From: a virus | IMG/VR virus record: IMGVR_UViG_3300032006_000032 | Coordinates: 1-36,772 of that record | Strand: one strand, 5' to 3' | Length of the DNA: 36,772 nucleotides | Shown: positions 14,104 to 36,772 of the stretch, piece after piece | Layout: each line of letters starts with the position of its first letter | Numbering within the stretch: position 1 is the stretch's first letter | Made by a program: the position numbers and the translations under genes | Notes under the pieces: generated by a model | Seen by the model: only the letters and a program-made list of their open reading frames with translations | Databases searched by the model: none | Told to the model about the DNA's origin: nothing

Positions 14104-14369
14104 TTGCCAGACATGAAATGAAAACCGTATCCGTGGACTTCGGCCTTGTGGTCGACTTCCAGGTGCCCAAGCAAATCAAAACCGAGCGATTTCTACAAGC
14201 TGTCTATGATGCTGTAGGTGGACTTGGGCACCCGGAGTACCTCGCCAGCATGCAAGCAGATTTTGCCTGGAGGGCAGGGAGAACGATCGCCGAGCAGGTC
14301 CAAAAGAATACAGCCTGGGACGTGAAATTTGGCGGAAGTTTCGAGACGGAAGTGAGGGAGGCAGAATGA
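14100..14369 (+). CDS. Hypothetical protein (89 aa)
   Basis: ATG 14,100 overlaps the previous stop as ATGA. The protein begins MIARHEMKTVSVDFGLVVDF. A beta-strand pair is followed by a helix (TERFLQAVYDAVGGLGHPEY) and a further helix (DFAWRAGRTIAEQVQ). This alpha/beta layout is unassigned. Its stop overlaps the GP88-like gene start by four bases, so the two are likely co-translated and may cooperate. Confidence 0.65.
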   Translation: MIARHEMKTVSVDFGLVVDFQVPKQIKTERFLQAVYDAVGGLGHPEYLASMQADFAWRAGRTIAEQVQKNTAWDVKFGGSFETEVREAE

Positions 14370-15049
14370 GGGGACCGAAAAATCTGCAAGTGAGAATGAC
14401 GAAGTCACTTGCCCTGGCTATCACTGGTGGACTAGGGAACCCCTCGAAAATGCCAGGCTGTGCATGGGGAATCCCCGCTAGCACCTGCCAGCTGGGAGGG
14501 CTGCTAAAGAAACAGCACGGGACACAATGTGCAGAGTGTTACGCGGATCGTGGTCGGTACCGTTTCCAAAACGTGCAAGACCGATTGTGGACCTCGCTTG
14601 AACTGTTCCGGCTTTACGATGAGTCAGGGAGAACAGACCTGTGGGTTGAGGCAATGGTTTTTCTGATTGTCGAGTCCGGAGAGGTGTGGTTTCGCTGGTT
14701 TCATTCTGGGGACCTCCAATCTAAGGAAATGGCCCTTGCGATTTTCGAGGTGTGCCGGTTGACTCCCAAAGTCAAGCACTGGATGCCAACACGCGAGCGC
14801 CGCCACATCAACGCAGCAACCAACGAGTGCCAAGACGTCCCCGGTAATCTCACAATCCGCTGGTCCGGTTCAATGGTAGACGGGACCCCTCCAAGCTGGG
14901 CACGGAATTGTAGCGTCCTGAGTAGTGGACCCCGGAGGCATGGGAGACGATGCCCGGCGCATATGCAAGGCAACGCATGCGGTGACTGTCGTATGTGCTG
15001 GGATCAGCGTGTTACCGTTATCGAATACGAAATGAACAACGTAAAATAG
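14366..15049 (+). CDS. GP88-like cysteine-rich phage protein (227 aa)
   Basis: The protein has an N-terminal cysteine cluster C32, C41, C55, C58 in the pattern C-x8-C-x13-CxxC-Y (QCAECYADRGRYRFQ), then FRWFHSGDLQS at about 109-119, and the segment VKHWMPTRERR. A C-terminal cysteine set (CPAHMQGNACGDCRMCWD) could hold a second metal or Fe-S cluster. The order C..C..CxxCY..G.Y, then R-x-x-H-S-GD, then an 'xWxPTR' segment, matches the phage Gene-product-88 family as I know it, whose biochemical role is unknown and which is distantly likened to radical-SAM-type proteins. ATG 14,366 follows GGGAGG and overlaps the upstream stop. Confidence 0.7.
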   Translation: MRGPKNLQVRMTKSLALAITGGLGNPSKMPGCAWGIPASTCQLGGLLKKQHGTQCAECYADRGRYRFQNVQDRLWTSLELFRLYDESGRTDLWVEAMVFLIVESGEVWFRWFHSGDLQSKEMALAIFEVCRLTPKVKHWMPTRERRHINAATNECQDVPGNLTIRWSGSMVDGTPPSWARNCSVLSSGPRRHGRRCPAHMQGNACGDCRMCWDQRVTVIEYEMNNVK

Positions 15050-15065
15050 AAGGGACGGACTCCCA

Positions 15066-15152
15066 ATGAGCGGTACCGCTGTGGCCTTTTGTGTTGTTGC
15101 TGTTTCTGTGCTACTTTGTTTGATAATTGACTTGATATCGGGGGAGAATTAA
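15066..15152 (+). CDS. Possible 28-aa single-span membrane peptide
   Basis: A short frame starting MSGTAVAFCVVAVSVLLCLI and ending IDLISGEN has one strongly hydrophobic segment of about 18 residues flanked by a small polar end. AAGGG lies about a dozen bases upstream, a little far. It overlaps the promoter for the following gene. It could be a small membrane toxin or superinfection-exclusion-type peptide, or chance. Confidence 0.35.
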   Translation: MSGTAVAFCVVAVSVLLCLIIDLISGEN

Positions 15153-15159
15153 CTACAAT
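15132..15159 (+). promoter_or_regulatory. Candidate promoter of the DUF932-like gene
   Basis: TTGATA and TACAAT are separated by 16 bases on the plus strand, inside the 200-base gap before the DUF932-like gene. A start about 15,166 would leave a leader near 87 bases. The downstream sequence is GC-rich and may fold (ctggggagtggggacccctg). Confidence 0.45.
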
Positions 15160-15252
15160 CCTGGGGAGTGGGGACCCCTGTGGTTGTGGCCTGTGACCTT
15201 GCGGTGCTACCCCCAGTAATTTCAACCAGCAGGCCAACGAAAAGGTATCACG

Positions 15253-16089
15253 ATGGAAACGCCAAGATTGAACTTAATGTTGCACTGCGGAGCCTCGGCA
15301 GTCGAGACCCAGGAACTTGACAGGGTGGAACTGCCGCCAATCAAGAGAAACAGCCAGGGACACATCACCTTTCAACCCGTGTCCCATGAAACCGTCCGCG
15401 TCCGAATTAAGGAGGCACTCACCAGTTCTCTTGATGACCAACTTGCGGTCGTTGCCGAGGCGCAGGGCATGACTCACGATGGGCAACGTGCCTTTGGAAT
15501 GATGCAGGTTCACCACCCTAGTATCAACGACACCCAACGCAAGCCGGGGACCTTCACCCAGGAGGTACAGAGGTCGGGGCTGGTGATTGGCTGGAGAAAC
15601 AGCCACGACCAATCATTCGCCAGTGCCGTGGCAATGGGGGCTGGTGTCTTTGTTTGCGACAATCTCTCGTTCTGCGGTGAAGTCAAGGTGTCACGTCGGC
15701 ACACGCGACACATCGTCCGCGATTTGCCAGAGGTGATTGCCAGGGCAGTCGGACGGCTGCTCGCGGTCAATCATCGACAACAGGAATTCTTCAACCAGCT
15801 GGAGCGATTCCCGATTCACCGTCCACTGGTCAACGACACCCTGGTCGAGGCAATGCGAACGAAGGCTATTCCCAACGCATCGATCCCCAAGGTGCTTGCC
15901 GAGTATGAATCGGAAAAGCATAAGGAAATGCACGGGACCAAGAGCGCGTGGTCGCTGTTTAACGCTTTTACTGAGGTTAGCAAGAACGACACCCCGACGC
16001 TGGCAATGAAACGGACGCAGCGGTTGCACGGGGTGTTCGGCAAGTTGCTGTCGCGTGCCAGTGACCTGCACCCCAGTATAGCTGGCTAG
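15253..16089 (+). CDS. DUF932-family protein (278 aa)
   Basis: The protein contains GWRNSHDQSFASAVAMGAG (about 113-131), VFVCDNLSFCGEVKVSRRHT (about 132-151) and a helical C-terminal half (HRQQEFFNQLERFPIH; TKSAWSLFNAFTEVSK). R-N-S-HD followed by VFVCDNL-F and a RKHT-like element is the pattern I associate with the DUF932 family, which occurs in phages, plasmids and mobile elements and has unknown function. ATG 15,253 follows AAAGGTATCACG. It stands alone between a candidate promoter and a strong terminator, implying independent, probably high expression. Confidence 0.75.
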   Translation: METPRLNLMLHCGASAVETQELDRVELPPIKRNSQGHITFQPVSHETVRVRIKEALTSSLDDQLAVVAEAQGMTHDGQRAFGMMQVHHPSINDTQRKPGTFTQEVQRSGLVIGWRNSHDQSFASAVAMGAGVFVCDNLSFCGEVKVSRRHTRHIVRDLPEVIARAVGRLLAVNHRQQEFFNQLERFPIHRPLVNDTLVEAMRTKAIPNASIPKVLAEYESEKHKEMHGTKSAWSLFNAFTEVSKNDTPTLAMKRTQRLHGVFGKLLSRASDLHPSIAG

Positions 16090-17013: not shown

Positions 17014-17318
17014 TGATAAACTCTACCATGATCAGATATTGGAACACGCAAATCACCCGCTGCACGGCAATCCGCCAACTCCTGCGAGGCCAGCGGTCCA
17101 GACTCAAGGTGACGGTCAGTTTCAATGGATCAACCAACTACTTCGAACCAACCGCCGCCGCAACTGGCAGATTACAGGTCAGCATCATGAAGGGTGCTGC
17201 TGCCGAGGCTCGCATCATCATCGCTGGACTGGAAAAGGAAGGAATCGAACTGGGCGCAAGCCAGCGTCCATCAGAGGATACCCTACGCCGGGTCGAATCG
17301 ATGGAGTTGCCCGCCTAG
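17013..17318 (+). CDS. Hypothetical protein (101 aa), last rightward gene
   Basis: ATG 17,013 overlaps the upstream stop TGA, with GAGGAGGACGAG as ribosome site. The protein begins MINSTMIRYWNTQITRCTAI and includes a basic segment (LLRGQRSRLKVTVSF), then an Ala-rich helix (GAAAEARIIIAGLEKEGIEL). It is unassigned. Its stop meets the 3' end of the opposite-strand nuclease gene (4-base overlap), and a terminator hairpin follows inside that gene. Confidence 0.65.
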   Translation: MINSTMIRYWNTQITRCTAIRQLLRGQRSRLKVTVSFNGSTNYFEPTAAATGRLQVSIMKGAAAEARIIIAGLEKEGIELGASQRPSEDTLRRVESMELPA

Positions 17319-17692
17319 CCCATGTAGCGGGTAGCGTGACCAGCCCTCAGTAATTCGTCGTTCACACACACGAATTGCTGAGGGCCTTTTTCTAGCCACA
17401 ACTCGCACAACCATCTGCCCCACTTCCCCTTCTTGCGTCCCTTGTGCGTCTTGAGAAGCACCTCGCCATCCTCAGGCAGCATCTCCCTGACAAAGTCCCT
17501 TGCGGCACGACCAGCTGCCCTGGTGGCACCTCTGATCTCAGGAGTATCAACCCCCAACAACCTCAGCTTCTGGCGGTGCAAGTACACGCCAAATCCGAGC
17601 GAGACCGTCGCCGTCGCGCTGTCGCCATCGTATACGTCCTCGGGGAGGATGATCGCACGGTAGCCAAACCTATGGGGTTTTGTCCTGGACAC
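17315..17692 (-). CDS. Staphylococcal-nuclease-like (SNase) protein (125 aa)
   Basis: The protein shows YDGDSATATVSLGFG (residues 21-35), KLRLLGVDTPEIRG (42-55) and WGRWLCELWLE (91-101). These supply the metal-binding Asp pair (D22, D24), R44, E52 and R93 expected for the thermonuclease active site, so it is likely a calcium-dependent nuclease cleaving DNA or RNA. Start is GTG 17,692 after AAAGGA, inside the end of the upstream membrane gene. There is no signal peptide, so it acts inside the cell, perhaps in host DNA degradation or recombination. Its last 25 codons contain a perfect terminator for the opposite strand. It is the end of the long leftward operon. Confidence 0.85.
   Translation of the reverse strand: MSRTKPHRFGYRAIILPEDVYDGDSATATVSLGFGVYLHRQKLRLLGVDTPEIRGATRAAGRAARDFVREMLPEDGEVLLKTHKGRKKGKWGRWLCELWLEKGPQQFVCVNDELLRAGHATRYMG
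17343..17391 (+). terminator. Strong terminator for rightward module, inside opposite gene
   Basis: GCCCTCAGTAATTCG (17,343-17,357) pairs with CGAATTGCTGAGGGC (17,371-17,385) with only one G-T pair, followed by CTTTTTC. It ends plus-strand transcription while also encoding residues of the convergent nuclease gene. Confidence 0.9.
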
Positions 17693-18086
17693 GTCGGATT
17701 CCTTTCACGACTGGCTCCCCGTCAACACTCATGATCTCTAGCTCCCACTCCTGGGACTGACGCACCTGCGACTCAATAGCCGGGGAGTACACTGGTGGAG
17801 TGACTGCTGTTTCTGGTTTCAACTGAAACAGACCGCTGGCAGCACCAAGACCACCAGCAGCCAGCCCTGCCATGGCAATGCCCTTCCAAAAACCGCCGTT
17901 GTCCACGACATTGACCGCTCCATTGCTCGGATACGTCCCGACATCCAGTTCTCCAAGACCAGCGTCCTTAGCCATGATTTTCCTCCTGATCTTGAGCCGC
18001 TGGGCAATGTCATGCGCCCAGATATTAGCCACAAGCCCCTTATTCCTCGCCTTCGAGCGGTACACTTCCCCGGCTGGACTGTCCAT
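17670..18086 (-). CDS. Small membrane protein with two possible starts (138 or 101 aa)
   Basis: Two in-frame ATG codons each have good ribosome sites: 18,086 (GAGGAG, seven bases) and 17,975 (AGGAGG, six bases). The short form starts MAKDAGLGELDVGTYPSNGA and has one membrane segment (WKGIAMAGLAAGGLGAASGL). The long form adds a basic helical N-terminus (LVANIWAHDIAQRLKIRRK). The C-terminal 60 residues are soluble (PPVYSPAIESQVRQSQEWEL). A dual-start membrane protein in a lysis-type neighbourhood recalls holin/antiholin pairs, but a single span and long soluble tail do not match a standard holin. Role is unassigned. Confidence 0.65.
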   Translation of the reverse strand: MDSPAGEVYRSKARNKGLVANIWAHDIAQRLKIRRKIMAKDAGLGELDVGTYPSNGAVNVVDNGGFWKGIAMAGLAAGGLGAASGLFQLKPETAVTPPVYSPAIESQVRQSQEWELEIMSVDGEPVVKGIRRVQDKTP

Positions 18087-18255
18087 CAGTTAACTCCTCG
18101 ATGAACTCTCTGTCGAGAGCCATTAGATCCTGCATTGCCCTTTCCTGCGTTTCACCCAGTCGCAGGGCGAGCGCGACCGCCTCAAGAAGCAAGCCGCGCT
18201 CGTCCAAGTCGACCAGACGAGCCGCCTCCGCACGCTGCTCAGGGGTTGTCAGCAT
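18040..18255 (-). CDS. Small helical hypothetical protein (71 aa)
   Basis: ATG 18,255 overlaps the upstream stop as TGATG. The protein, MLTTPEQRAEAARLVDLDER and onward, is almost all amphipathic helix (LLLEAVALALRLGETQERAM) with an acidic tail. It is short and unassigned. It overlaps the following membrane-protein gene by 46 bases if the long start is used. Confidence 0.6.
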   Translation of the reverse strand: MLTTPEQRAEAARLVDLDERGLLLEAVALALRLGETQERAMQDLMALDREFIEELTDGQSSRGSVPLEGEE

Positions 18256-18458
18256 CAGGAACCTGGCGAGCTGATAGGTGCCTCACGCATCAGAAGCTGA
18301 CGAGCAGCCGCCGACTCCATGACATCCGGTTCCGACAGGTTCTTGGTGAACACCCGGTCGATCAGCACCAGCGTGGTCTGAGAGGCATCACTCGCCCGAC
18401 CGATTCGCTCACCAGCCGCCGCTTCCAACAGGCTCTGAAGATCCACTGCACTTGCCAT
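18255..18458 (-). CDS. Small helical hypothetical protein (67 aa)
   Basis: ATG 18,458 has AAGGAG seven bases upstream. The protein MASAVDLQSLLEAAAGERIG continues with short helices and no motif. It lies four bases after the protease gene and is coupled to the next gene. A structural or assembly accessory to the protease is a guess. No family is recognised. Confidence 0.6.
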   Translation of the reverse strand: MASAVDLQSLLEAAAGERIGRASDASQTTLVLIDRVFTKNLSEPDVMESAAARQLLMREAPISSPGS

Positions 18459-18462
18459 AATT

Positions 18463-19311
18463 CTACTCCTTCACCGGACGCAGTCTGATACGGATTGTTG
18501 CCCGGAAGTTGCTGCGCCAATGCTCCAGGGACTCCAGCCTCGACGAGAAGCCGGATATATCAGCAGCCGTCCCTGGCTCACCATCTCTGCCATCACGACC
18601 AGCCGGGCCAGCAGGCCCAGGTGGACCGGTAACCGGTTTGATCGACTCTAATTCTTTCAACCTGCGTTTCAATTCCAGGATCTCACGGGTCCTGTCCTTG
18701 TCACCCCAGTCTGCCCCCTCCACACGGGGGCCAAACGCCTTGTACTCCTTCAGAAAAGCAACCAGCTGCGTGTGGCTGGCAGCAAACAGTTCTTTGTCAT
18801 CCTTACCGTGACTGGCAACCCCCACCAGTACCCCACCAGCATACACCCCCGCCCCAGAATCTCCATTGCGATATTTACCACCGACCACCTTGTAACCACG
18901 ACGCATAAGCAGACGCTTATTCGACGAGTCGGTGATTTCCTGGGAACCCATGGCTTTCAGATGCTTGTGGCCATGCCTGCCATACGCGGTAATTACACCA
19001 CTAGGTGGCGATTTTTCTGGCACAACGGCCAACGATTGGCCACTGCTGGGGATCTTGAACAGTGCAAGGTCGGCCTCTTTATCGAGAGCCACCCAGGAAC
19101 CCCTGACCCTGCGTCCATCTTGAAGAACGATGTAAACCACATCGCCAATAGCACCGGCACAGTGGGCTGCGCTGACCCCGAACGTGGAACTGAGGTCCCG
19201 GTGGACGAGCGTACCACTGCATCCACCAACATCAACTGCACCCCGGGGGAGGCTTTGGGAGGGTACAGCTGAACACAGGATCAGAGCCAGCGCAGACACC
19301 ATGAGCCGCAT
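18463..19311 (-). CDS. Secreted trypsin-like serine protease with coiled-coil and collagen-like stalk
   Basis: Residues 1-20 (MRLMVSALALILCSAVPSQS) are a signal peptide, so the product is exported. The protease domain has the catalytic triad: His50 in GVSAAHCAG, Asp81 in DKEADLALF, and Ser152 in RNGDSGAGV, with C31 and C51 possibly bridging. After the domain comes a coiled coil (TREILELKRRLKELES, about 208-223), then a collagen-like run of Gly-X-Y triplets (GPPGPAGPAGRDGRDGEPG, residues 229-247), and a short C-terminal domain. ATG 19,311 follows AAGGAG. This looks like a trimeric, surface- or envelope-located protease. Proximity to a holin-like gene suggests lysis or host-surface remodelling; that is inference. 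Confidence 0.85.
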   Translation of the reverse strand: MRLMVSALALILCSAVPSQSLPRGAVDVGGCSGTLVHRDLSSTFGVSAAHCAGAIGDVVYIVLQDGRRVRGSWVALDKEADLALFKIPSSGQSLAVVPEKSPPSGVITAYGRHGHKHLKAMGSQEITDSSNKRLLMRRGYKVVGGKYRNGDSGAGVYAGGVLVGVASHGKDDKELFAASHTQLVAFLKEYKAFGPRVEGADWGDKDRTREILELKRRLKELESIKPVTGPPGPAGPAGRDGRDGEPGTAADISGFSSRLESLEHWRSNFRATIRIRLRPVKE

Positions 19312-19316
19312 GACGA

Positions 19317-19517
19317 CTACTCCTTTTTCTTGGATGCGGACTGAAAGACTTTACGACCAGCCTCAAATCCGCACGCCAGGATCAACAACTCCACGATCGT
19401 CAAAACTTCTCCCTTGTCGAAGTTTGTAGAGTTCAGATACAGGAACGTCGTCAACCCAGCAAACATCACAACCAGCCGAATAATGCCCCAGAAAGGGTGG
19501 TTTCCATTGATATCCAC
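19317..19517 (-). CDS. Two-span small membrane protein, candidate holin (66 aa)
   Basis: The best start is GTG 19,517, six bases after AAGGAGG; the longer ATG start would overlap the RusA gene. The 66-residue product (MDINGNHPFWG then two hydrophobic spans, IIRLVVMFAGLTTFLYL and VLTIVELLILACGF) ends in a basic tail (SASKKKE). Size, two spans and charged C-terminus fit class II holins, which make inner-membrane holes. It lies six bases before the secreted protease gene. The family is not identified by sequence, so holin is a topological inference. Confidence 0.65.
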   Translation of the reverse strand: MDINGNHPFWGIIRLVVMFAGLTTFLYLNSTNFDKGEVLTIVELLILACGFEAGRKVFQSASKKKE

Positions 19518-19555: not shown

Positions 19556-19960
19556 TCATGGATGACTTTCCGGGGACGGATCCCCGGGTGGGTCACCCAC
19601 CACGACAATCTCCACGCGGGGATCATCCTTGTCAACAGTGACCTCAGGCATCTGCGGGCGGAATCCATAATCATCAACGCCCAGGGCCGCTGCTATTCCA
19701 TCATAGGCATATTTCAGCATCGCGGCCATGTTATCCCGATCGCGACGACGCTTGTCCTTATAGAAGAATGTCGCCTGTAGCCGGGCATTCGACCAGTCAA
19801 TATCCCCTCGCCTCCGACTCACAAGCTCAGTGAAACAAGCCACCCGACACGCTTCGCGGTACTTCTTGGAGTGTTTATGACGGGTGCGCCAGTGGCAGCG
19901 TGAATTAGGACTCAGCTGCCTCGGAGGGAGGGGACAAACTACGGTGATCTGGGCAGTCAC
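19556..19960 (-). CDS. RusA-like Holliday junction resolvase
   Basis: The protein (134 aa) carries the RusA signature RRRDRDNMAAMLKYAYDGIA (residues 71-90) with D74, D76, N77 and D87, followed by LGVDDYGF (D96, D97). These Asp residues bind the metal ions used to cut four-way junctions. Length, the N-terminal strand (ITVVCPLPPRQLSPNSR) and the basic region (HWRTRHKHSKKY) fit the family. Phage RusA enzymes resolve recombination intermediates before packaging. It overlaps the preceding gene by four bases and fits with the Rad52-like annealing protein upstream. Confidence 0.88.
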   Translation of the reverse strand: MTAQITVVCPLPPRQLSPNSRCHWRTRHKHSKKYREACRVACFTELVSRRRGDIDWSNARLQATFFYKDKRRRDRDNMAAMLKYAYDGIAAALGVDDYGFRPQMPEVTVDKDDPRVEIVVVGDPPGDPSPESHP

Positions 19961-26600: not shown

Positions 26601-27083
26601 CTACCTGATCCGAAGCGATGTGCTCTTCACTAGTTCGCATCCCGGGATCAACTCCCCTTCCTTCAAGGAATTAAGAATCTCGGACTTGAGAACCTTGACG
26701 TCCATCTCCAGGTATCTCGTGGGGATCTGCTCCTGATCAACGATTTCCACCCTGCCTGGGGTCTCCTGAACACGCACCGTGAACAGGTCGTCCTTCACCA
26801 AGTCCATCTCCATCCCGACCATTTGGTCGTGGACATAGCCCTTCAGCCAATCCCGCTTGTTCTTGAATGACTTCTGCTTCCCTTTCAGCCGATCGATCTC
26901 AGCACCCACTGCATCCACCGAGGAGTCCAACTCCTTGATGATCTTCACACAGTTGACCACCTTTTCCTTGAAGCTGCCGCCAAGGTGCTTGAGTTCCTCC
27001 AGCAACTCATGGCTGAGACCCCCCTCCTCAGTAGCCAACCGAACCAGATTGTCTAGCTTTTCCGGGTATTCATACAACTTCAT
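26601..27083 (-). CDS. Siphovirus Gp157-like protein
   Basis: Start ATG 27,083 follows GAGGAGG inside the csrA 3' end. The protein (160 aa) begins MKLYEYPEKLDNLVRLATEE, has a central coiled coil (DSSVDAVGAEIDRLKGKQKS), the segment KRDWLKGYVHDQMVGM, and a C-terminal VRVQETPGRVEIVDQEQIPT-Y. This is the arrangement of the Gp157 family, found in phage recombination modules beside annealing proteins; the specific activity is unclear. It overlaps csrA by 14 bases and precedes the Rad52-like gene by 42 bases. Confidence 0.85.
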   Translation of the reverse strand: MKLYEYPEKLDNLVRLATEEGGLSHELLEELKHLGGSFKEKVVNCVKIIKELDSSVDAVGAEIDRLKGKQKSFKNKRDWLKGYVHDQMVGMEMDLVKDDLFTVRVQETPGRVEIVDQEQIPTRYLEMDVKVLKSEILNSLKEGELIPGCELVKSTSLRIR

Positions 27084-27246
27084 CGAGTTCTGCCTCCTCA
27101 CGGGTCAACTCGTAACGCAAAATCTTCACGTTGTCAGGGGCGTCGACTCCCAGTCGGACGAAGTTGCTTCGCAACTCCAAGATCGTTACCGTGATGTCGC
27201 CATCGATATCGATCTTCTCTCCCTCTTTCCTGCTTAGCACCAGCAT
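27070..27246 (-). CDS. csrA: Phage-encoded CsrA (RNA-binding translational regulator)
   Basis: The 58-residue product begins MLVLSRKEGEKIDIDGDITV and continues TILELRSNFVRLGVDAPDNV and KILRYELTREEAELDE. This matches bacterial CsrA/RsmA along its full length: the N-terminal MLxLxRKxGE strand, the GxDAPxxVxIxRxEL segment with the RNA-contacting Arg (R44), and five-strand dimer pattern. CsrA dimers bind GGA in leaders and control translation and mRNA stability. AAGGAGA lies eight bases before ATG 27,246. It is the first gene of the long leftward early operon with its own promoter. The in-frame reading upstream is chance, not an extension. Confidence 0.93.
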   Translation of the reverse strand: MLVLSRKEGEKIDIDGDITVTILELRSNFVRLGVDAPDNVKILRYELTREEAELDEVV

Positions 27247-27280
27247 TGCCTTCTCCTTAATTGCTGTGTGTTGCACGACT

Positions 27281-27308
27281 ACTATAGCAGCTGCCAACAG
27301 CATGGCAA
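27281..27308 (-). promoter_or_regulatory. Sigma70-like promoter of csrA/early operon
   Basis: On the minus strand TTGCCA (27,303-27,308) and TATAGT (27,281-27,286) are separated by 16 bases, five of six matching each consensus. Transcription would begin near 27,274, giving a leader of about 28 bases. It is the only good promoter found upstream of the early operon. Confidence 0.65.
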
Positions 27309-27369
27309 CCGCAAAATGTAGTAGGTCACACAGTGGAGGCATACCACTGGTAGCAGTTGTGGGCCTAAA

Positions 27370-27395
27370 TCTGCTTAGTACATTTTGTGCTAAGC
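27370..27395. repeat. 26-bp palindromic element, copy 2
   Basis: This is the reverse complement of the copy at 11,947-11,972, with no mismatch over 26 bases. It starts on the last base of the stop codon of the polyvalent gene and lies about 62 bases upstream of the csrA -35 box. GCTTAG and CTAAGC arms flank CACAAAATGTA. Confidence 0.8.
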
Positions 27396-30300
27396 TACTG
27401 GCTGTAGATGCCCTTGGCTCGCCGGTATCTGCGGAGTCCTTCTCGCATCTTTTCGCTGGAGGCGTTTTCGATCCCTGGGATACCGCGTATGAGCAGGTTG
27501 CGTGCTGCTTCTTTTTGCTTGAAGAGTTGCTTCCTGATCTCTTCAGCCTCTTCAATGTCTCCCTCCAGATAGGCCCGGTTCATCAGCATTGTGTCCCGCT
27601 CTCTCTCCCTGAGGGCACGCTCCATCTGGAATGGCTCGCGGTTCATCATCATCGTCTCGACATTACTGACCGCGAGGTCGGCCAGTTCGGAAATCTTCTT
27701 GGTGATGGCCCTTCTTTTCTTTTCGTCTTTTGTCATTGCGCGGATGTGAAACATCAGGCTCATTGCCTTGGTTGCGTCTGTCAGCAGCAGCCTCTCGTGC
27801 CTTTGTGCTGATGTCTCGGGGTTTTCATCTGAACCTGATCGCATAAACGCCTGTGCGTGAAGAGCGTAAAGTTTGTCCACGGGCTGAGGTCGAGTACCCA
27901 GTTTCCCGCCAGTCCTGAACACTCTCCCTAGCAGTGGCCAGTCGCTTGCCGATTGGTACTTCCTCTTGGTAAACAACTCGTCCAGTGACTGTGCAGACAG
28001 CAGTAGGTCTCGCAGTCCCGGGCCAGCAACAGATGTTGCGATGTGGTCGATCTGCTGTGGTGACTGCTCGAATATGCGTCCCAGCCACTTTGCTGCTGTT
28101 GTTGTGTACTCGTTGAATTGCTCGTGCCTGGGCCTTGCGTCTGCTCGGCCCGTTGCCTGGAACCGTGGAGACACGATAGGCGTGTTCCAATAGCTCTTGG
28201 TGTTGAGTCCGATCTCCTGGGCTGTCTTTGCGAGGACTCCAGCTGCATTGGTTGGTGCCCATGTCATTCCAGTCGGACCCTCTCGCAGCGGGAGGTCGAC
28301 TGGACTGTGGTTCTCGGCCATGGATAGTGCGAATTCACCAAGCTGCTCCCAGTTGATGATTTCATCCGGCTCAGTCCTGTAGGCTGCATCGGCAAGGGCG
28401 ATGGCCACCCCGGCGAACAGTTGCCCAGAGTCGTGAGACAGTGGGATCTGAACCACTTCCTCCACCCCGTTGACATCGACTGGGACGAAGAGGTAGAGGA
28501 ACTTCCTCTGTATGTCCATCTTCTTCCACCAGTCCTCGTCCCGGTAGGTCGACCACATTCCCAGGGCAATGGTTGCCATGTGGGCACCTCTCCAAGCGTA
28601 AACCAGCGGCCTTCGCCTTGCTGCTCTTGCAGCTGAGCGTGGTCCCTGAATAGTTGCGTTGAAGAATGGTGTTATCTGGTTCCAGAAACGTGCAAAAGAT
28701 CCAGCTGCTGTGAAGTCCACAGTCACCTGCTTGCCAGCCACCATAAGTTTCTGGGCAATCTCGGGTGTTAGCTCTTTGCTTGGGTCCCAGTTCAGGTCCC
28801 TCGCGACGTTCTTGATTTCAGTTATTCTTGCTGCCGATTCCGGGAACTGGATCAGGCGTCCAAGAAAATCAACAAACGTGTTCCAGTCCCTCCAAAGGTG
28901 CTGGGGTGTTTTCAGTGGCTCCTCTATGTACCGGACAAGCCGCCTGCCGATCCTCTTGGACTCCAGGGCGTCTCTCGCGGCTTGCTTCACAAGGTTGCTG
29001 CCCTGGCTCAAGGGGCGTGCCATTTCCCCACCAAGCCTCAACCAAAGGTCGCTGTAGCCTGACTTGTATCGACCCCCGGTTACTGCGGACAGCAACTCCT
29101 CGCCGTAAGTCCACATGTAGTCAATGAACAGAGGGAATGCGTACCGGCTTGAGATGGTGTTCAAGTACAGGGTCTGGAAGTCGCGAAGCGGGTTGGTGAT
29201 AAGTCCAAAGCTGGCGCGGAACCCGACTGTCCCGGCCCGAAACGCCCGTGCGGGGGTTCTGAACGTGAGGTTGAACATTCCGTACAGCAGGGCGTTCTGT
29301 CGGAAGAAGCTCAGCCCGTCAGCACTCATGCTGGAAAGTGCGTTGTAGATACCGGCGTTCATCCTGTACCACTTGATCTGCTTCCCGACGCGAATAGGAA
29401 TGATGGGCTTCCCATTCTTAGGGGTGATCGCGGCACCGAAAAATTGAATCATCTGGTTTTCAAAATCAATATCGTTGATTTCCAGCTTGTCCCCGCTACC
29501 TGACACCAGGAACACTTCTTCCCCTACTGACTTCAGGTTTCTGAGGTGTTTCATCACGCTCTTGGTCAGGCTCTCCAGCGACCGGACAGCCTTGAGTTCG
29601 TTTGTTCGGACCTCCTCAAAGATCAGGTTGCCGAAGCCAAATACGCCCTTACCTTCCTCGTCCAGGGAATGCTTGTTTCGCTGGACTTGCATGCTCATCG
29701 CGACCATGGTGTCGATCACCTTGCGATTGTGTGCGGCAAGGACCAGTCGCTCGGCGTTTGCAATCGATGTCTGTATCGGGTCGATGAACTGGCCACTTTG
29801 CGAGCCTCGCAATGCGTGAAGGACATCGGTGTAGTTTTCCGGTTGTACGCCAGTCATCTGCATGACGACTGAGTTCATCCTCCTTTGGTATCGCTGGAGC
29901 GGAACGTAGTCGCCCCGTGTTTCTTCACGCTTCCTGATGCTTCTCACCAGATCCGCCATGAACTTGTCCGCGCCCGCGACGTAACTCAGGACCCCGTCGT
30001 TCCAGTCGTAAACAATCTCGGCGGCAGCACCAAAATTGCTATGCTCCTCTTCCAGCTTATCGATGATGAACCCAGCAAGCTCGGGGGTCAGGGGTGTCTC
30101 CAGCGGTTTTTCTTTGTCCATCATCACTCTAAGGCTTCTGCGAGCCAGGAGGTAGATGGCAAAGTCCCAGTATTCCTTGGGGTTCAGGAGTTCTTGGACC
30201 TTGCGTAGTGCGGGAATCTGCTTTTTGTTCTGATCAAGCAGCGGGTTGCGATCGAAATTGATCATCCCCTCGTTGACCATGTATCGAACCACTGCTGAGT

Positions 30301-33300
30301 GCTGCAGCCTGAGTGCTGTTGCCCAGTAGTAGGGGGATTTACTTTGGTCTAGCTTTTCACCGGTCGTGTTTTCGTACTGCTTTTCAAACATCGCGAGCGG
30401 GTGAAGGGTGTCTACCAGACCCCTCATTATCGCATTTGGTGACATTGAAATAGCGTCTCGGAACCTGTCAAACCTTGCTTCAAATGATGCAGGGTCTACA
30501 GCCATGGCTCCCCTGGCCCACTTCAACGCACCCTGTTCCTGGAATCTTGTGACCATCGCGGACAGGACATCCAGTTCCCTGGCCGCTGCTTTGTGCTTGG
30601 ACAGGACGTTGTTCTGCCACCACTCCAGCATGTTGGGGGCGACTTTATCCAGAAGTGCCCTGTTGGATATATAAATCCTGATGAACTCGGCAAACCCCTC
30701 GCCACGGTATCCGCCTGCCGGTTTTTTGTCGCCGTAAAGATTTTCTCCCAGGTTCTCTAGTTCTCGTATCGCTGAGGCACCGACCCGTGCTTCCGTCCAA
30801 AGCTGCTTTCTCACTTCACGGCCAAGCGAGTCCCGTGTGATTCCTGTTCCAAGCAGGAGTGTTTCGATCGCATGCCCGATTTCATGGAACGCAGTCATCG
30901 CGTTGTCTGCTTCCCTGACTTTGATCAACTGGTCAACGAACCAGTGAACACCCCGCACGTTTGGCCCTTTTTGTGCGATAGGGTCGCCCATGATCATGGG
31001 GTATTCGCGTGTGGCCCCCTTGTATCCGAACAGTCTCGGTAGCAATGCCAGTCGCCTGATGATCTTCCATGCCGCGAGTGGTCTCCCAGTGTTGGACTGA
31101 GGGTCTCGCAGATGCCACATCCTGTGTTGTGCCGGGACCGCCCCTGCCGGAACGTCCGTTTCTCCTCCAGGAAGCAACTGCCCCGGGTCGTCGCGGGTGT
31201 ATCCAGCAGAATCCTCAGACTCATTCAGGTGGTGCTCGATCGCCTCTTTGATCGGCAGTTCCACCTCCGCGAAATGTGCAGTGCGGTCGATCGCAGCTTT
31301 TTCTTCGCTCCAACCGAGCGTTTGCTGTATGCCTTCCCAGTCCATCCGGGACATGAACACCTCCACCCTCTCCCCTTCCTCGTTGGTGAAGTCCGTGACC
31401 CATTTGAAAAACTTCTGAAGATTTTCAACCCCGCCTCTGTCTGCGTGTGCAGCTAGTGCAGCCTTGGAAAACTTCACGAGCCATATCGCAACATTCCCTT
31501 CGTTATGAAATTCCGCATGCTCGACATGGCCTGCCTCCTGCCCCTCAAACACAGACAGTCCGGATAGCTCCACGAGAGCCTCGGAGTCCGCTGTGCGAGT
31601 GAAGTGGCTTGCCAGTGACGCTGTGATGGGTGGCAACTCTTGCTCAAATTGCGTCACTTCCTCCCCGGAGTATTCATTAGCGTCCAGCAGTTCCATGGCC
31701 CTTTGCCGAACATCATCGCGACTGTGCTGGCTGGACGATTCGGCACCTTGCTGGAATGTGTACTCGATCCAAATCTGCAACCGAGCGATCGCCCTCTCTT
31801 CGACTGTGGTCGCCTCACCAAACGCATCGGGCATGCCCGCTGCGTCCAGGTAGTCTATTCGGGCCAATTGCTGGGCTATGTTTCGAGCGAGGCTCTCAAG
31901 TTCCCCTTCCTCGGATTGCTCAACGTGGCTTTGGCTCTCGACATCGGAAGCCTTCTCGCCCTTCTGCAGCTGGTCGGTCTCCTCCAGCACCTCGTTCATG
32001 TTGGATTCGTTGTCAAGTTCAGCAATCATCTGGGCGATTTCGATCATCGTCGCAACGTCGCTATCCCCGATCATGTCGTACCAGGAAGCGTCTTTGTCCT
32101 CCCGGAAATGCTCCATAACCTTCTCGGCAACCGGAGTGTGTCGTTCTACTTGGTCGGGGTGGTGTTCCGAGGCGAGCATCAAATATTGACCAATATATTG
32201 ACGCAGTCTTTCGCGGTATATCTCGTCAAGCTCTTCAGCCTCGACCATCGGTCGTGTTTTTCTTTCCGCTTTCGCGACATTGTCCATCCCGATGACGAAA
32301 ACTTGCGATTGTCCAAACAGCCTTCGGAGTTGCTTTACGTTCCCCTCGTAGTCCGGGTGCCCTTTTTTTGGCCAATAATCGGCTGCGGACGGGAAGTTGA
32401 TAATGATTGCGTCGTGGCCGTTTGCGGTTGCGTATTCCCGCAGACCCAACCCCAGAGCTTCACTTTCTGCGTGTGTCCCAGGATCGACGAGATAGAGGTC
32501 CGAAGAAGCGACTTGTGCAGCAAGTCCCCTGAGTTGGTTGCCGGTTGTCACTACCAGCGGGTTCTCCAGCACGACTGTCGTCTCAGTGACATCCGGGCCA
32601 AACATTGCGGCATGGTTCGCATTTTGGGCGTAGTACCTTCCGTCGGAACCCAGTAGCGGCGAGGCTTCCCGGAATCCGTATGGCTGGTTTGGATTGACAC
32701 GCCCTTTCCCGTGGTACACAAGGATCGAGACCTTTTCTCCCGTGTCCTCGCTTGTTATGTCCCACGCAACTCCATATCCGTCGTCAACAAAGACATTCTC
32801 TACCTTTACCTCGCGGGCATCCTCTTCCTTTGCCTCCTGCGTCGGGACCTGGGTCGCCTTCTCGGGTGCAGGCTTATCGATCTCCGGGGATTGCTGGTTT
32901 CCTGCCTCGCGTGGCCCGCCAAATACGGCACCAACTCGCTCCTTGATGTCGTATTTCCTAAGTGCTTCAGCAATGACTTTGGAGTGCGGATCTGTCGCGC
33001 TCGCAAACATTCCTTCAGCCTCCGATATCAGTGCCGATTTCACGCCTTTCATCTGCCCCCTGAAGACCCTCGGCTTGCCGCCTATTTGCAGAAGCAGGTC
33101 CAGCATCATCCTGCCAGCCGGGGAGATCTGATCCTTCGGGTCCACCTCCATCCCGGGGAGAACCGGTGACGCAAGGAACTCGTCAGCCAGCCCTACGGTA
33201 TCTCGGTCTGGGTGAAGCCCAATCCAGACAGCAGCCTCGGCTAACGCTGGCCCTATGTCGGCTGAAGGTACGGCACGCTGTATAGCCAGCACTTCTGTCA

Positions 33301-36300
33301 CAGCACCCTGCAGAGCCTTTTTCAGGTACTTTGCATTGTCACCGATGCTTTCAATAGAATCGACATCGAAAGCCTGCAGGACAAACATATTCTCAATAAG
33401 TTCCTGACCGGCGATGGTCAGGTGTCCATTCTCGAAGTAGCTTTCAACAGATGCGGGGTTCAAGGCGTTCTTTACTCTTTGTAAAAACTCTTTCCCAGCC
33501 TTGTTTGAAAGCATTTTGACGAGCGTGTCGCCAGAGTCCCACGGGAGCGCGTTGACCAGACCTTCTTCACCAACAAGGTAAGACAGACTTGCGGCAGTCC
33601 TTACTGGGGTCTCGGAGTACGTCGCAGATTGATTGCCCGCTCTTGCAAAATCGTGCGCTTTCTCTTTTGTCGGGTCCATTTCCACGACACGAACCAGCAC
33701 CGGCTGTTTCATCGCGTCGATGTCAGACTCCTTGAGTCCAAACGTACTCGCATTCTGTCGCAGGGAATTGGTGTACCAGTCCCCGTAGGCCAGCTGGAGA
33801 GCCATCACGCGACCGTTCCCGTTGATGACAACCCCTCCCGGGGAAACCGAGGAGGGGCCACTGGTTGCGTCCGGGTGCAGGCTTATGAAGTATGCAGCGA
33901 TTTTCTCGTTGGCTTGATCCTCGACCTTGTTTACGTCGTAACCTGCTTCATGTGCACGAGGCTGGAGGTTCGCTGGGTAGTTGCCTTCCGGTGTTGCCAC
34001 AATGCCTGGGCCGACCCTCTTGACCTTGTGGCTGGCCGTGATGTCACTCAACTCCATAAGGGCGTATGTGGCATCGACGTTGTCGGAGCCTGGAACGACG
34101 ATCGTCGTCGCACTGCCCTTGATCATCTCCCGGGCTGGCTCTTCCGCCTCGGGGGCTTGACCCAGTGCCTCATCGTAAAGAGTATCTTGGCCAGCATCCC
34201 TGGGATTCAGAACTGGTGGAGCCTCTCTCTGCCCTGGGGCCAGATCCTTGACTCGCGAGCCGAAACTAAATAGCAGGTCGACGGGAACCTCGATATCACC
34301 ATATTCCCTAAACATCGCCAGTGCACGACCCCTGCCCTCATGCCCGCTGACTTGCATTGGCACCAGTGGTTTGCCGTCCTCGTCCTCAACATCAACAGTT
34401 AGCCAGGGAGGGGCAACCGCTTCCCCGGAAGCAATCCGCTTGCGGATAGCCTCGACATTTTCTAGGTTGATCCGCGCTGGCAACAGTTTCATGAGGTCCG
34501 AGAGCATCATCGTTGTGCTGATGCCTTTGCCGGTTTCCCCACGGTGCATCTCTAGTTGGTTGGCTTGGTCTGGCACATAACCAAATCCCCCGCGATCAAA
34601 AACCGGACCTTCCGCCGCCTCGGGGGCTGGGGTGGGCTTTCTGACCATCCAGTCGGCCACGTCTTTCTCGAAGCCAAACCGCTCGTAAAGCTGGCGAAGT
34701 TTCTTTTTCGGAATCTTTCCCCAATTGGTGTCCAATGGCACGGCATGCAGGCCCAGCGTCACCTGAAACTCGTCGGCCAGTGTTGCCAACGATGCCACGA
34801 TGTCGCTGCCCATCCCCGTTTTGAACTTGCCTTCAAGTGCCAAAATTTGATCGACGGTGACGCTGTTCTCGTCAGCACCCTTAAGCAACCTCACGACGAA
34901 TGTTACTTTTTCGCCATCACGTTCTGTCGTAATCAATCTTGCGTTGGGATCGTCTGGATGATCCATTCCCGCCTTATTGAATTGCTTAAGGAACTTGTCG
35001 CTCGGACCTTCCGCCGCCTCGGGGGCTGGGGCTGCTTCAGTCTCGCCCGTTATCCCAAGCTCCCCTGCGACTGAAGTAGACGACTGCTGGGCCTTGTGTA
35101 TCTGTTTGGCCATGTCGAGGCCGGGGATCTGGTTTTCCTCCCGTTCGTAAGCCCCCATCACCTTTTCAGTAAGGCTTCTCGCCTCGGGTCCCGCCTCGGC
35201 AACGTCAAGGAAGTCTGCAATTGCCCTGGGGTTGAAGGACAATGGAAGCTGCAGTTTCCCGTCGCTTAGGGACGGAAGATCATTAGGGGAGTATCCTCGG
35301 TTTGCGTACCACTGAGGGTGCTGCTGGTAAAGTGCGGAATTGACGACTGCTTGCGCTGCCGTTAGGGCTTGGCCTTCTAGGGGAACCTCTTCCAGCCACT
35401 GCTTTTCCGATACCACTTCGTCACGAGGCCCAGCAGTTTGAAGAAAATCCCTTGCATCATTTAGCAGAGAAGCAGCGTCTGTGTACTCTTTACCGCGAGC
35501 AAACAGCCTGATGTAGTCCTCAAGTCCAGGGTCCCCTTCCGCTTGCCCTAACGCCTCGTTGATAATTGCTTCAGCGGTTTTCGCCCCGGGTGCGGCAGCA
35601 GGAGCCGCCGGTGCAGGTGCAGGAGTGGCGGCAGGGGCTGGTGCCGGGGTGGCTGCAGGGGCCGCTGGTGCTGGAGCAGGGGCCGCTGGTGCTGGGGCTG
35701 GCTTGCGACCTATTTTGGTTCGTCCTTCTATAGCAGACCGCTGGTTCTGCAGCTTTTTTAGACGGTCCTTCCAGGCGTTTAGCTGCCGGGAGCGTTTTTT
35801 ACCGAGGCCCTTCCCGGGCTTCCTTTTGGCTTCCAGGCCGTCGATCTTCTTTTGCAGATCGTCTATTTTCGATGACAACTCGTCGATCTGTTCCTGTGGT
35901 GTAGCTGCAGGTGCTGCCGCTGGTGCTGGTGCTGGTGCAGGTGCGGCAGGTGTCGCCGTGGGTGCTGGTCTCCATGCCACAACAGAACCAATCGGCAGTG
36001 TCGCCCCCTCCTCCGTCTCCCAGTCGCCTCGTTTATTTTTCTGTTTCAGCGTGAAAACTTGCGGGGTTATCTGGGGTGTAATCTCCCCAGTTCCTTGCAA
36101 TGGGTAGCCTAATACCTGTGTCCCGGGAGTCGCGACCGACTTCAGCCAAGTTCCCAAGCCACCCCTTCCGCCTATCCACTCGTTTTCGCTGCTGCCTACA
36201 AACTCAGCGATTGAGGGCTGCACCCCCAGGTTGGACAAAATGTTTGTGGAAGAGACTATGAAAGTTTGATTCGTCTTTGGGTCGATGGCTCTCCAGAAAA

Positions 36301-36772
36301 CTGGCCTGTTATCGTCGTCACGCTCTCCTGCCAACGGGTTGATGAGAACCAGTTCTCTTTCGCCCTCGAACTGCATCCCGCCCGTGGCAACAACCCTAAG
36401 TCCCCCGTGCGCAAATACGGGTTTCGGTGGTGCGCCTTCCTCCCCCGGGCCACTCGGTGGCTTGGGTTCAGCAAACATTTTCTCAATCTGCTCAGGCAGA
36501 CCTTCGAGTATAGACTCGACTTCCGGTCGCAGGAGGTCTGCAAACCATTGTCGGTGCACCCTGTCGTCAGGATCAAACGGTTCTGGTTTTGTGGTTCGCT
36601 CCTTGGTCTCCGGGTCGACCCGGGTGATGAGCACTTCCTCCCCGGTCTCCGGGGCAAACGACTCGGGACCCATTTTCGCGGCTATTTTTGCGACCCTGTT
36701 GTATTTTGTACGCGACGGGTCCTCCAGGAACGCCTCAAGGCGATCAAGGTTGTTTTTGCCAAACCACGCCTG
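27395..36772 (-). CDS. Giant polyvalent protein, N-terminus beyond right edge (over 3,100 aa)
   Basis: The frame is open from the right edge to TAG 27,395, at least 3,125 codons; an ATG at 36,673 is internal, since upstream codons (FGKNNLDRLEAFLEDPSRTK) read on in frame. Numbering from that ATG: Ala/Pro-rich linkers near 240 and 325-365 around a coiled coil; a GNAT-acetyltransferase-like domain (560-680, YERFGF); a ParB-like HEGRGR domain (700-800); a DdrB-type ParB domain (850-1000, INGNGRVMAL); an ADP-ribosyltransferase-like domain (1310-1465, ILVYHGKGR); a zinc metalloprotease (HEIGH at 1930-1934, EGFAEF near 1992-1997); and a large helical C-terminal region like the LPD38-type polyvalent tails. 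Such proteins are packed in virions and injected. Functions are inferred from motifs. Confidence 0.85.
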   Translation of the reverse strand, partial: QAWFGKNNLDRLEAFLEDPSRTKYNRVAKIAAKMGPESFAPETGEEVLITRVDPETKERTTKPEPFDPDDRVHRQWFADLLRPEVESILEGLPEQIEKMFAEPKPPSGPGEEGAPPKPVFAHGGLRVVATGGMQFEGERELVLINPLAGERDDDNRPVFWRAIDPKTNQTFIVSSTNILSNLGVQPSIAEFVGSSENEWIGGRGGLGTWLKSVATPGTQVLGYPLQGTGEITPQITPQVFTLKQKNKRGDWETEEGATLPIGSVVAWRPAPTATPAAPAPAPAPAAAPAATPQEQIDELSSKIDDLQKKIDGLEAKRKPGKGLGKKRSRQLNAWKDRLKKLQNQRSAIEGRTKIGRKPAPAPAAPAPAPAAPAATPAPAPAATPAPAPAAPAAAPGAKTAEAIINEALGQAEGDPGLEDYIRLFARGKEYTDAASLLNDARDFLQTAGPRDEVVSEKQWLEEVPLEGQALTAAQAVVNSALYQQHPQWYANRGYSPNDLPSLSDGKLQLPLSFNPRAIADFLDVAEAGPEARSLTEKVMGAYEREENQIPGLDMAKQIHKAQQSSTSVAGELGITGETEAAPAPEAAEGPSDKFLKQFNKAGMDHPDDPNARLITTERDGEKVTFVVRLLKGADENSVTVDQILALEGKFKTGMGSDIVASLATLADEFQVTLGLHAVPLDTNWGKIPKKKLRQLYERFGFEKDVADWMVRKPTPAPEAAEGPVFDRGGFGYVPDQANQLEMHRGETGKGISTTMMLSDLMKLLPARINLENVEAIRKRIASGEAVAPPWLTVDVEDEDGKPLVPMQVSGHEGRGRALAMFREYGDIEVPVDLLFSFGSRVKDLAPGQREAPPVLNPRDAGQDTLYDEALGQAPEAEEPAREMIKGSATTIVVPGSDNVDATYALMELSDITASHKVKRVGPGIVATPEGNYPANLQPRAHEAGYDVNKVEDQANEKIAAYFISLHPDATSGPSSVSPGGVVINGNGRVMALQLAYGDWYTNSLRQNASTFGLKESDIDAMKQPVLVRVVEMDPTKEKAHDFARAGNQSATYSETPVRTAASLSYLVGEEGLVNALPWDSGDTLVKMLSNKAGKEFLQRVKNALNPASVESYFENGHLTIAGQELIENMFVLQAFDVDSIESIGDNAKYLKKALQGAVTEVLAIQRAVPSADIGPALAEAAVWIGLHPDRDTVGLADEFLASPVLPGMEVDPKDQISPAGRMMLDLLLQIGGKPRVFRGQMKGVKSALISEAEGMFASATDPHSKVIAEALRKYDIKERVGAVFGGPREAGNQQSPEIDKPAPEKATQVPTQEAKEEDAREVKVENVFVDDGYGVAWDITSEDTGEKVSILVYHGKGRVNPNQPYGFREASPLLGSDGRYYAQNANHAAMFGPDVTETTVVLENPLVVTTGNQLRGLAAQVASSDLYLVDPGTHAESEALGLGLREYATANGHDAIIINFPSAADYWPKKGHPDYEGNVKQLRRLFGQSQVFVIGMDNVAKAERKTRPMVEAEELDEIYRERLRQYIGQYLMLASEHHPDQVERHTPVAEKVMEHFREDKDASWYDMIGDSDVATMIEIAQMIAELDNESNMNEVLEETDQLQKGEKASDVESQSHVEQSEEGELESLARNIAQQLARIDYLDAAGMPDAFGEATTVEERAIARLQIWIEYTFQQGAESSSQHSRDDVRQRAMELLDANEYSGEEVTQFEQELPPITASLASHFTRTADSEALVELSGLSVFEGQEAGHVEHAEFHNEGNVAIWLVKFSKAALAAHADRGGVENLQKFFKWVTDFTNEEGERVEVFMSRMDWEGIQQTLGWSEEKAAIDRTAHFAEVELPIKEAIEHHLNESEDSAGYTRDDPGQLLPGGETDVPAGAVPAQHRMWHLRDPQSNTGRPLAAWKIIRRLALLPRLFGYKGATREYPMIMGDPIAQKGPNVRGVHWFVDQLIKVREADNAMTAFHEIGHAIETLLLGTGITRDSLGREVRKQLWTEARVGASAIRELENLGENLYGDKKPAGGYRGEGFAEFIRIYISNRALLDKVAPNMLEWWQNNVLSKHKAAARELDVLSAMVTRFQEQGALKWARGAMAVDPASFEARFDRFRDAISMSPNAIMRGLVDTLHPLAMFEKQYENTTGEKLDQSKSPYYWATALRLQHSAVVRYMVNEGMINFDRNPLLDQNKKQIPALRKVQELLNPKEYWDFAIYLLARRSLRVMMDKEKPLETPLTPELAGFIIDKLEEEHSNFGAAAEIVYDWNDGVLSYVAGADKFMADLVRSIRKREETRGDYVPLQRYQRRMNSVVMQMTGVQPENYTDVLHALRGSQSGQFIDPIQTSIANAERLVLAAHNRKVIDTMVAMSMQVQRNKHSLDEEGKGVFGFGNLIFEEVRTNELKAVRSLESLTKSVMKHLRNLKSVGEEVFLVSGSGDKLEINDIDFENQMIQFFGAAITPKNGKPIIPIRVGKQIKWYRMNAGIYNALSSMSADGLSFFRQNALLYGMFNLTFRTPARAFRAGTVGFRASFGLITNPLRDFQTLYLNTISSRYAFPLFIDYMWTYGEELLSAVTGGRYKSGYSDLWLRLGGEMARPLSQGSNLVKQAARDALESKRIGRRLVRYIEEPLKTPQHLWRDWNTFVDFLGRLIQFPESAARITEIKNVARDLNWDPSKELTPEIAQKLMVAGKQVTVDFTAAGSFARFWNQITPFFNATIQGPRSAARAARRRPLVYAWRGAHMATIALGMWSTYRDEDWWKKMDIQRKFLYLFVPVDVNGVEEVVQIPLSHDSGQLFAGVAIALADAAYRTEPDEIINWEQLGEFALSMAENHSPVDLPLREGPTGMTWAPTNAAGVLAKTAQEIGLNTKSYWNTPIVSPRFQATGRADARPRHEQFNEYTTTAAKWLGRIFEQSPQQIDHIATSVAGPGLRDLLLSAQSLDELFTKRKYQSASDWPLLGRVFRTGGKLGTRPQPVDKLYALHAQAFMRSGSDENPETSAQRHERLLLTDATKAMSLMFHIRAMTKDEKKRRAITKKISELADLAVSNVETMMMNREPFQMERALRERERDTMLMNRAYLEGDIEEAEEIRKQLFKQKEAARNLLIRGIPGIENASSEKMREGLRRYRRAKGIYSQ
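34604..34632 (-). repeat. 29-bp direct repeat in linker of polyvalent gene, copy 1
   Basis: The 29 bases (cggaccttccgccgcctcgg and nine more) encode an Ala/Pro/Glu linker (APEAAEGP). The identical run appears at 35,003-35,031. A third, shorter relative is at about 34,141-34,165. It joins the GNAT-like and ParB-like domains. Confidence 0.7.
35003..35031 (-). repeat. 29-bp direct repeat in linker of polyvalent gene, copy 2
   Basis: This is the second identical copy of the 29 bases at 34,604-34,632, encoding the APEAAEGP linker just before the GNAT-like domain. The two copies flank that domain and would allow its loss or exchange by recombination. Confidence 0.7.

Follow-up and report, generated by a model that had tools for sequence, protein, structure and literature searches.

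A family of predicted exported phage proteases with a conserved coiled-coil and collagen-like stalk, encoded beside a holin-like gene

Why would a tailed phage keep an apparently exported serine protease on a collagen-like stalk, encoded directly after a small holin-like gene? The question is raised by the window, that is, the whole stretch of 36,772 nucleotides analysed here (IMG/VR record IMGVR_UViG_3300032006_000032), a 36.8-kb fragment of an uncultured tailed phage whose head genes are SU10-like (the adaptor passes the PF24175 cut-off, the portal matches weakly, and there are a PHROG major head protein and a terminase). The protease gene starts 5 nt past the stop of the upstream membrane gene, with the ribosome-binding site AAGGAG 8 nt ahead of its ATG; scans for sigma-70 promoters and terminators gave results at or near chance level. 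The 282-aa product begins with a signal peptide and a trypsin-type peptidase; the segment WGDKDRTREILELKRRLKELE comes next, then a run of seven Gly-X-Y triplets, another coil (RLESLEHW) and a strand-like basic end (FRATIRIRLRPVKE). Its parts are as follows:

18463-19311, minus strand: whole gene, predicted exported trypsin-fold protease with a coil-collagen-coil stalk, 282 aa
19252-19311, minus strand: Sec-type signal peptide, about residues 1-20, MRLMVSALALILCSAVPSQS (hydrophobic N-terminus, kept in relatives)
18733-19251, minus strand: trypsin/HtrA-fold peptidase domain, residues 21-193 (Pfam Trypsin_2, AlphaFold, VIA-align)
19162-19164, minus strand: predicted catalytic His50, present in 24 of 24 readable alignment rows
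19069-19071, minus strand: predicted catalytic Asp81, present in 25 of 25 rows
18856-18858, minus strand: predicted catalytic Ser152 in G-[DSN]-S-G, present in 25 of 25 rows
18643-18708, minus strand: signature WGDKDRTREI and short coiled coil with the trimer motif RLKELE, residues 202-223 (invariant columns, top family conservation)
18565-18627, minus strand: collagen-like segment of seven Gly-X-Y triplets, residues 229-249 (read from the sequence)
18466-18564, minus strand: residues 250-282, comprising the second coiled coil, with RLESLE at 258, and the basic, strand-like cap FRATIRIRLRPVKE (alignment, AlphaFold)

An earlier note on this DNA, made from the letters, had proposed an exported trypsin-like protease with the triad His50/Asp81/Ser152, and database and structure comparisons agreed with it. 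Pfam Trypsin_2 (PF13365) matched residues 31-165 with 31.2 bits, above its cut-off of 27.6, and relatives reached 36-51 bits; PHROG 9683 ('protease') matched with E 2.5e-8, covering residues 25-169 only. The AlphaFold monomer model had a pLDDT of about 90-95 across most of residues 21-190, and the nearest folds (Foldseek, VIA-align) were DegS, DegP, Deg1 and HtrA (Z 18.5-20.8, rmsd 2.4-5.1, 152-173 residues aligned). The NCBIfam models for DegS, HhoA and Do gave 14-18 bits, below cut-offs of more than 400 (416-450 for DegS/Do). Pfam detected no PDZ domain, the C-terminus being modelled by AlphaFold as helix-collagen-helix, and no peptidoglycan-hydrolase domain in the protease, giving only Trypsin_2 and, weakly, Collagen. 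Every relative that could be read has the complete triad, down to 33% identity, and the loss of the triad in relatives, which the note had named as a refutation, did not occur. The Cys pair 31/51 was retained except in the L062/L063/L066 clade, C31 also being missing in L050. We make no claim of trypsin-type Arg/Lys specificity, since Lys146 occupies the place of trypsin Asp189, six residues ahead of the active serine, and the relatives mostly have a basic residue there.

Hydrophobic, signal-peptide-like N-termini are retained among the relatives although their sequences diverge; in the window protein, the cleavage site was placed by eye. By inspection its signal peptide has no lipobox, with Leu rather than G/A/S preceding the Cys (LILC). 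Lipoprotein anchoring and a spanin identity were rejected, the Cys context being wrong for a lipobox o-spanin.

To gather the family, close relatives were collected by single-sequence search, more were added via the neighbour gene, and a profile search followed, which gave 35 loci down to 31% identity; conservation was read from a 25-row alignment. Searched as DNA, WGD[KR]DRTREI was found in 40 viral contigs, and wherever the sequence suffices it lies in a trypsin-type protein, the sole exception being a stalk-only protein in L082/L091. Over the mature protein, dN/dS was 0.08-0.18 (seven pairs), indicating purifying selection. One protease clade (L062:3390-4388, L063, L066, L070, L071) has another cap (VTVQVLDPKTKSVVAEQKYPFGTPIKLILP) and no Cys pair, with the same triad and WGD motif. 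The viral protein UniProt A0A516LES5, present without a name in BFVD, has 302 aa and aligns almost end to end with 42% identity (E 1.4e-25); judging by this similarity, it is very likely a family member already deposited. No relatives were found in GenBank phages by tblastn with two family members, or in one genome per GTDB species by profile search; a lone DNA match to the WGD signature in the one-genome-per-species set was set aside as chance, being a 69-aa ORF without family context. The protease family is real and, as far as the libraries searched show, undescribed.

What sets this family apart is its stalk. The layout given in the note, with a coiled coil and a C-terminal cap, was confirmed, and the AlphaFold model has helices at 205-223 and 249-268. 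The collagen-like segment was also rightly recognised, with a miscount: the run comprises seven strict Gly-X-Y triplets (GPPGPAGPAGRDGRDGEPGTA), of which the first six had been counted. Its Pfam Collagen score of 16.1 bits is under the cut-off, as a short run would lead one to expect, and triplets, 3-12 in number, occur in every relative long enough to show them. When the protease C-terminus alone was used as query, it returned only family members and three short collagen-type matches. Mean pairwise identity was 0.41 in the peptidase, 0.72 in the WGD-helix, 0.57 in the collagen segment and 0.53 in the second coil and cap. The protein is thus most strongly constrained at the start of the stalk, at 72% against 41% for the peptidase, and all 25 rows share an unchanged core of the WGD motif. 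This constraint suggests specific docking or register setting.

The stalk also bears on how the enzyme may be assembled. The pattern R-h-x-x-h-E is a trimerisation motif known from coiled-coil work. Tails of the 25 proteins hold 34 such motifs against 0.64 expected from shuffles, a count drawn from related rows and hence not one of 34 independent events, and often there is one motif per side of the collagen run. A coiled coil adjoining a collagen helix is experimentally trimeric in E. coli prophage proteins (PMC3368898). Because of the motif excess flanking the collagen run and this experimentally trimeric counterpart, the stalk likely holds three protease copies together as a trimer. Export, trimer formation and catalytic activity are all features that we strongly infer from sequence. 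Two near-identical fragments (L082:4710-5048 and L091:1488-1826) encode an exported protein of 112 aa that has WGDRDRTREI, the coil and the cap but lacks the peptidase, placed between a span-plus-coil gene and a gene for a C92 permuted-papain enzyme, at the position that the protease has in its block. Since this protein has the stalk without the peptidase, stalk and enzyme are separable modules.

We then considered the genes around the protease. Local profiles gave the block order (RusA) - small membrane gene - protease - p67 - p76 - one-span protein - (SNase), which in the window corresponds to these neighbours:

19556-19960, minus strand: RusA-like Holliday-junction resolvase, with which the conserved block begins upstream (PHROG 34, E 2e-13)
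19317-19517, minus strand: holin-like small membrane protein, basic at its C-terminus and with two hydrophobic spans (AAGGAGG precedes its GTG start; longer ORF to 19559)
18255-18458, minus strand: p67, small conserved protein encoded next after the protease (local profiles)
18040-18255, minus strand: p76, conserved small protein (local profiles)
17670-18086, minus strand: conserved protein in which a proline-rich tail follows a single glycine-rich hydrophobic span (local profiles)
17315-17692, minus strand: SNase-like nuclease closing the block (Pfam PF00565, E 1.5e-6; PHROG 452, E 1.8e-21)

The description of this region as lysis-like stands in part: a small membrane gene nearly always precedes the protease, and a C92 enzyme is present in one clade, but the block lies in the window amid DNA-metabolism genes (RusA before, SNase after) and not with head or tail genes. 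The holin-like two-span gene noticed upstream is conserved, and its product has the small size, membrane spans (read by eye) and charged C-terminus by which holins are recognised. It matched nothing in Pfam, PHROGs or NCBIfam, and no known holin family; the only contact with one was made by its positional counterpart in L059 (PHROG 1350 'holin', E 0.007). The holin label rests on hydrophobicity, and a holin function is only presumed. In all contigs compared but those of the L062/L063 clade, where the order differs, the protease gene comes after a small membrane gene, which is of three kinds: two-span (window clade), coil-then-span and span-then-coil.

Where a coil-type membrane gene lies beside the protease, a C92 enzyme is present, and where the two-span gene does, all contigs are without C92. 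Independence of this switch was rejected: the protease tree needs one change only, so the association represents a single historical swap and not evidence of repeated coupling. C92 (PF05708) was above cut-off in seven contigs, with diverged copies detected by local profile, and the enzymes resemble the NCBIfam YaeF/YiiX-like model, below its cut-off. Those at L054:7703-8311, L059:2563-3189, L061:2846-3460 and L102:3582-4151 lie beside holin-like genes, in one clade. The permuted-papain enzymes are candidate lysis or envelope enzymes themselves; C92 does not count among the established endolysins. A tail-fibre-like gene lies directly downstream of the block in L059 and L061. The one-span protein (17670-18086) and its homologues (THDVxERxxIRRK...DVGTYP) follow the protease in most blocks and have no database match; this protein could be the stalk's membrane partner. 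On the opposite strand, the window carries genes for GP88 (PF17338) and DUF932 (PF06067) at 14366-16089 (plus strand), and similar ones lie beyond the block in L025, L027 and others.

Does the phage have another enzyme for lysis? The earlier note had seen no peptidoglycan endolysin, and none came to light in the window or in the tail region supplied by G003, a 44.3-kb contig which has the tail genes absent from the window and whose protease is 97% identical: the ORFs examined in both gave no Pfam or PHROGs match to a peptidoglycan hydrolase. Amidase_2, phage lysozyme, SLT, NlpC/P60 and M15_3 had no match in 24 contigs, and CHAP and M23 none in 16, in searches that recovered control genes in reference genomes; by Pfam, the 38 ORFs of a 58.7-kb relative (G024) also contained no lysin. 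These negatives cover known families in contigs many of which are fragments, and a lysin of a new family would escape them.

No host emerged from the searches: no tRNA genes were found, and terminase, polyvalent protein, SNase, methyltransferase, C92 and one-span queries returned only distant phage records or none. Among the other genes of the window, a CsrA homologue (PF02599, E 1.8e-19) lies near the C-terminus of the ORF at 27070-27555 (minus strand), with a diverged copy in G003; CsrA is a global RNA-binding regulator of hosts. At 27395-36673 (minus strand), the window encodes a polyvalent protein of 3092 aa, probably injected, in which ddrB-ParB and LPD38 domains and an HEIGH zincin-like motif were recognised. 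The polyvalent protein of G003 has 3301 aa, with ddrB-ParB, LPD38 and additionally a RuvA_C-like stretch.

Taken with its block, the protease is best explained, tentatively and with a good deal of room for the alternatives, as a Sec-exported trimeric envelope protease on a stalk that aids lysis or release together with the holin-like protein. Three things incline us to an envelope or lysis role: a small membrane gene is a constant partner, a sister clade has the C92 enzyme, and no other lysis enzyme was found. The serine protease, with its HtrA/DegS-like domain and a C-terminal coil-collagen-coil-basic strand in place of PDZ, would be exported by Sec. Its C-terminal module would most likely bind three peptidases together, and the invariant WGD[KR]DRTREI segment and basic cap would dock them at a fixed envelope site. 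Made beside the small holin-like membrane protein, the trimer would most likely attack host envelope proteins, the envisaged targets being outer-membrane, periplasmic or surface-layer protein, and the cell would be opened or progeny released. The surface-layer and competitor targets suggested earlier are guesses. What the sequences show directly is the open frame, its homology and predicted fold, the conserved triad and block, purifying selection and the lack of known endolysin families in the contigs tested; timing, target, lysis role and holin function are matters that we only infer. The main weakness of a lysis role is the place of the window-clade block among early-looking genes between RusA and SNase, with some relatives (L059, L061) having it beside a fibre-like gene instead; in addition, a Sec-exported enzyme needs no holin, and the stalk-only protein shows that the protease is not always in the module. 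A bolder version, which we regard as a long shot, has the exported trimeric protease replacing the endolysin, or acting with the permuted-papain enzyme in the sister clade, to break a proteinaceous load-bearing layer, with WGD[KR]DRTREI as a dedicated envelope-docking module that can be exported enzyme-free.

The most serious rival, which we consider unlikely though not remote, is early surface remodelling or superinfection exclusion, in which the protease would cut a receptor or surface protein and block adsorption, unrelated to lysis. A block after DNA-metabolism genes could be early, which fits this explanation, and the window-clade gene keeps company with RusA, methyltransferase, helicase and SNase, away from head and tail genes. 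The protease has its own export signal, so a holin is unneeded, and its stalk can be exported without it (L082/L091). However, a holin-like gene precedes the protease in both main clades, with a permuted-papain enzyme in one block, and no other lysis enzyme is visible in the contigs tested. Also improbable is a secreted auxiliary protease that digests extracellular or periplasmic protein, for nutrients or HtrA-like stress relief, with the membrane gene unrelated. The closest folds are indeed periplasmic quality-control proteases (DegS, DegP, HtrA), but the phage enzyme lacks their PDZ domain, its stalk signature is more conserved than the enzyme, which suggests fixed positioning over free secretion, and it is tightly linked to the same small genes. 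Least probable is a virion fibre or spike, a protease-bearing appendage cutting an outer protein layer at infection: collagen with coiled coil is tail-fibre architecture, the coil-collagen-coil tail weakly resembles PHROG tail-fibre families, phage collagen proteins with adjoining trimeric coiled coils are experimentally trimeric (PMC3368898), and a fibre-like gene lies downstream in L059 and L061, but signal-peptide-like N-termini would take the protein out of the cytoplasm, where tailed phages assemble, and the window gene lies outside the tail module, between RusA and SNase.

The preferred reading, an envelope protease aiding lysis or release, matters for how lysis is understood. The prevailing view is that lysis by tailed phages of didermic hosts requires a peptidoglycan hydrolase, and here phages without a recognisable hydrolase keep, under purifying selection, an exported, probably trimeric protease beside a holin-like gene. 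If the protease acts in lysis, digestion of the envelope by a protease would join the known lysis routes and would point to hosts whose wall depends on protein; should it act on the surface, it would be a new tool for superinfection or entry. In both cases, the WGD[KR]DRTREI stalk provides a specific gene marker and a modular trimer display of enzymes outside the cell. The papers searched contained nothing about phage lysis cassettes with such a protease.

HtrA-type phage proteases are already known, and HtrA enzymes are trimers. The phage protease shares with HtrA/DegS/DegP (Do) the trypsin-type fold, export and the triad order His-Asp-Ser, but it has no PDZ domain, and its trimerisation apparently comes from the C-terminal coil-collagen-coil. 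PHROG 9683 and viral Trypsin_2 proteins have the same peptidase domain, in a match that excludes the WGD-DRTREI/collagen module, while A0A516LES5 is a near full-length homologue that carries no name or function in the tables used. The combination of peptidase and WGD-DRTREI/collagen stalk, the conservation of the stalk and the gene block appear undescribed in the libraries searched. The collagen-coil arrangement is shared with EPclA, the collagen-like prophage proteins of E. coli O157:H7, in which a collagen triple helix beside a trimeric coiled coil was shown to be trimeric; these are of fibre type, with PfN/PfC domains and no peptidase (PMC3368898). Classical endolysin-holin cassettes likewise have a small hydrophobic gene directly before the gene of an envelope-degrading enzyme, whereas here that place is taken by a protease which carries a signal peptide of its own and is not a peptidoglycan hydrolase.
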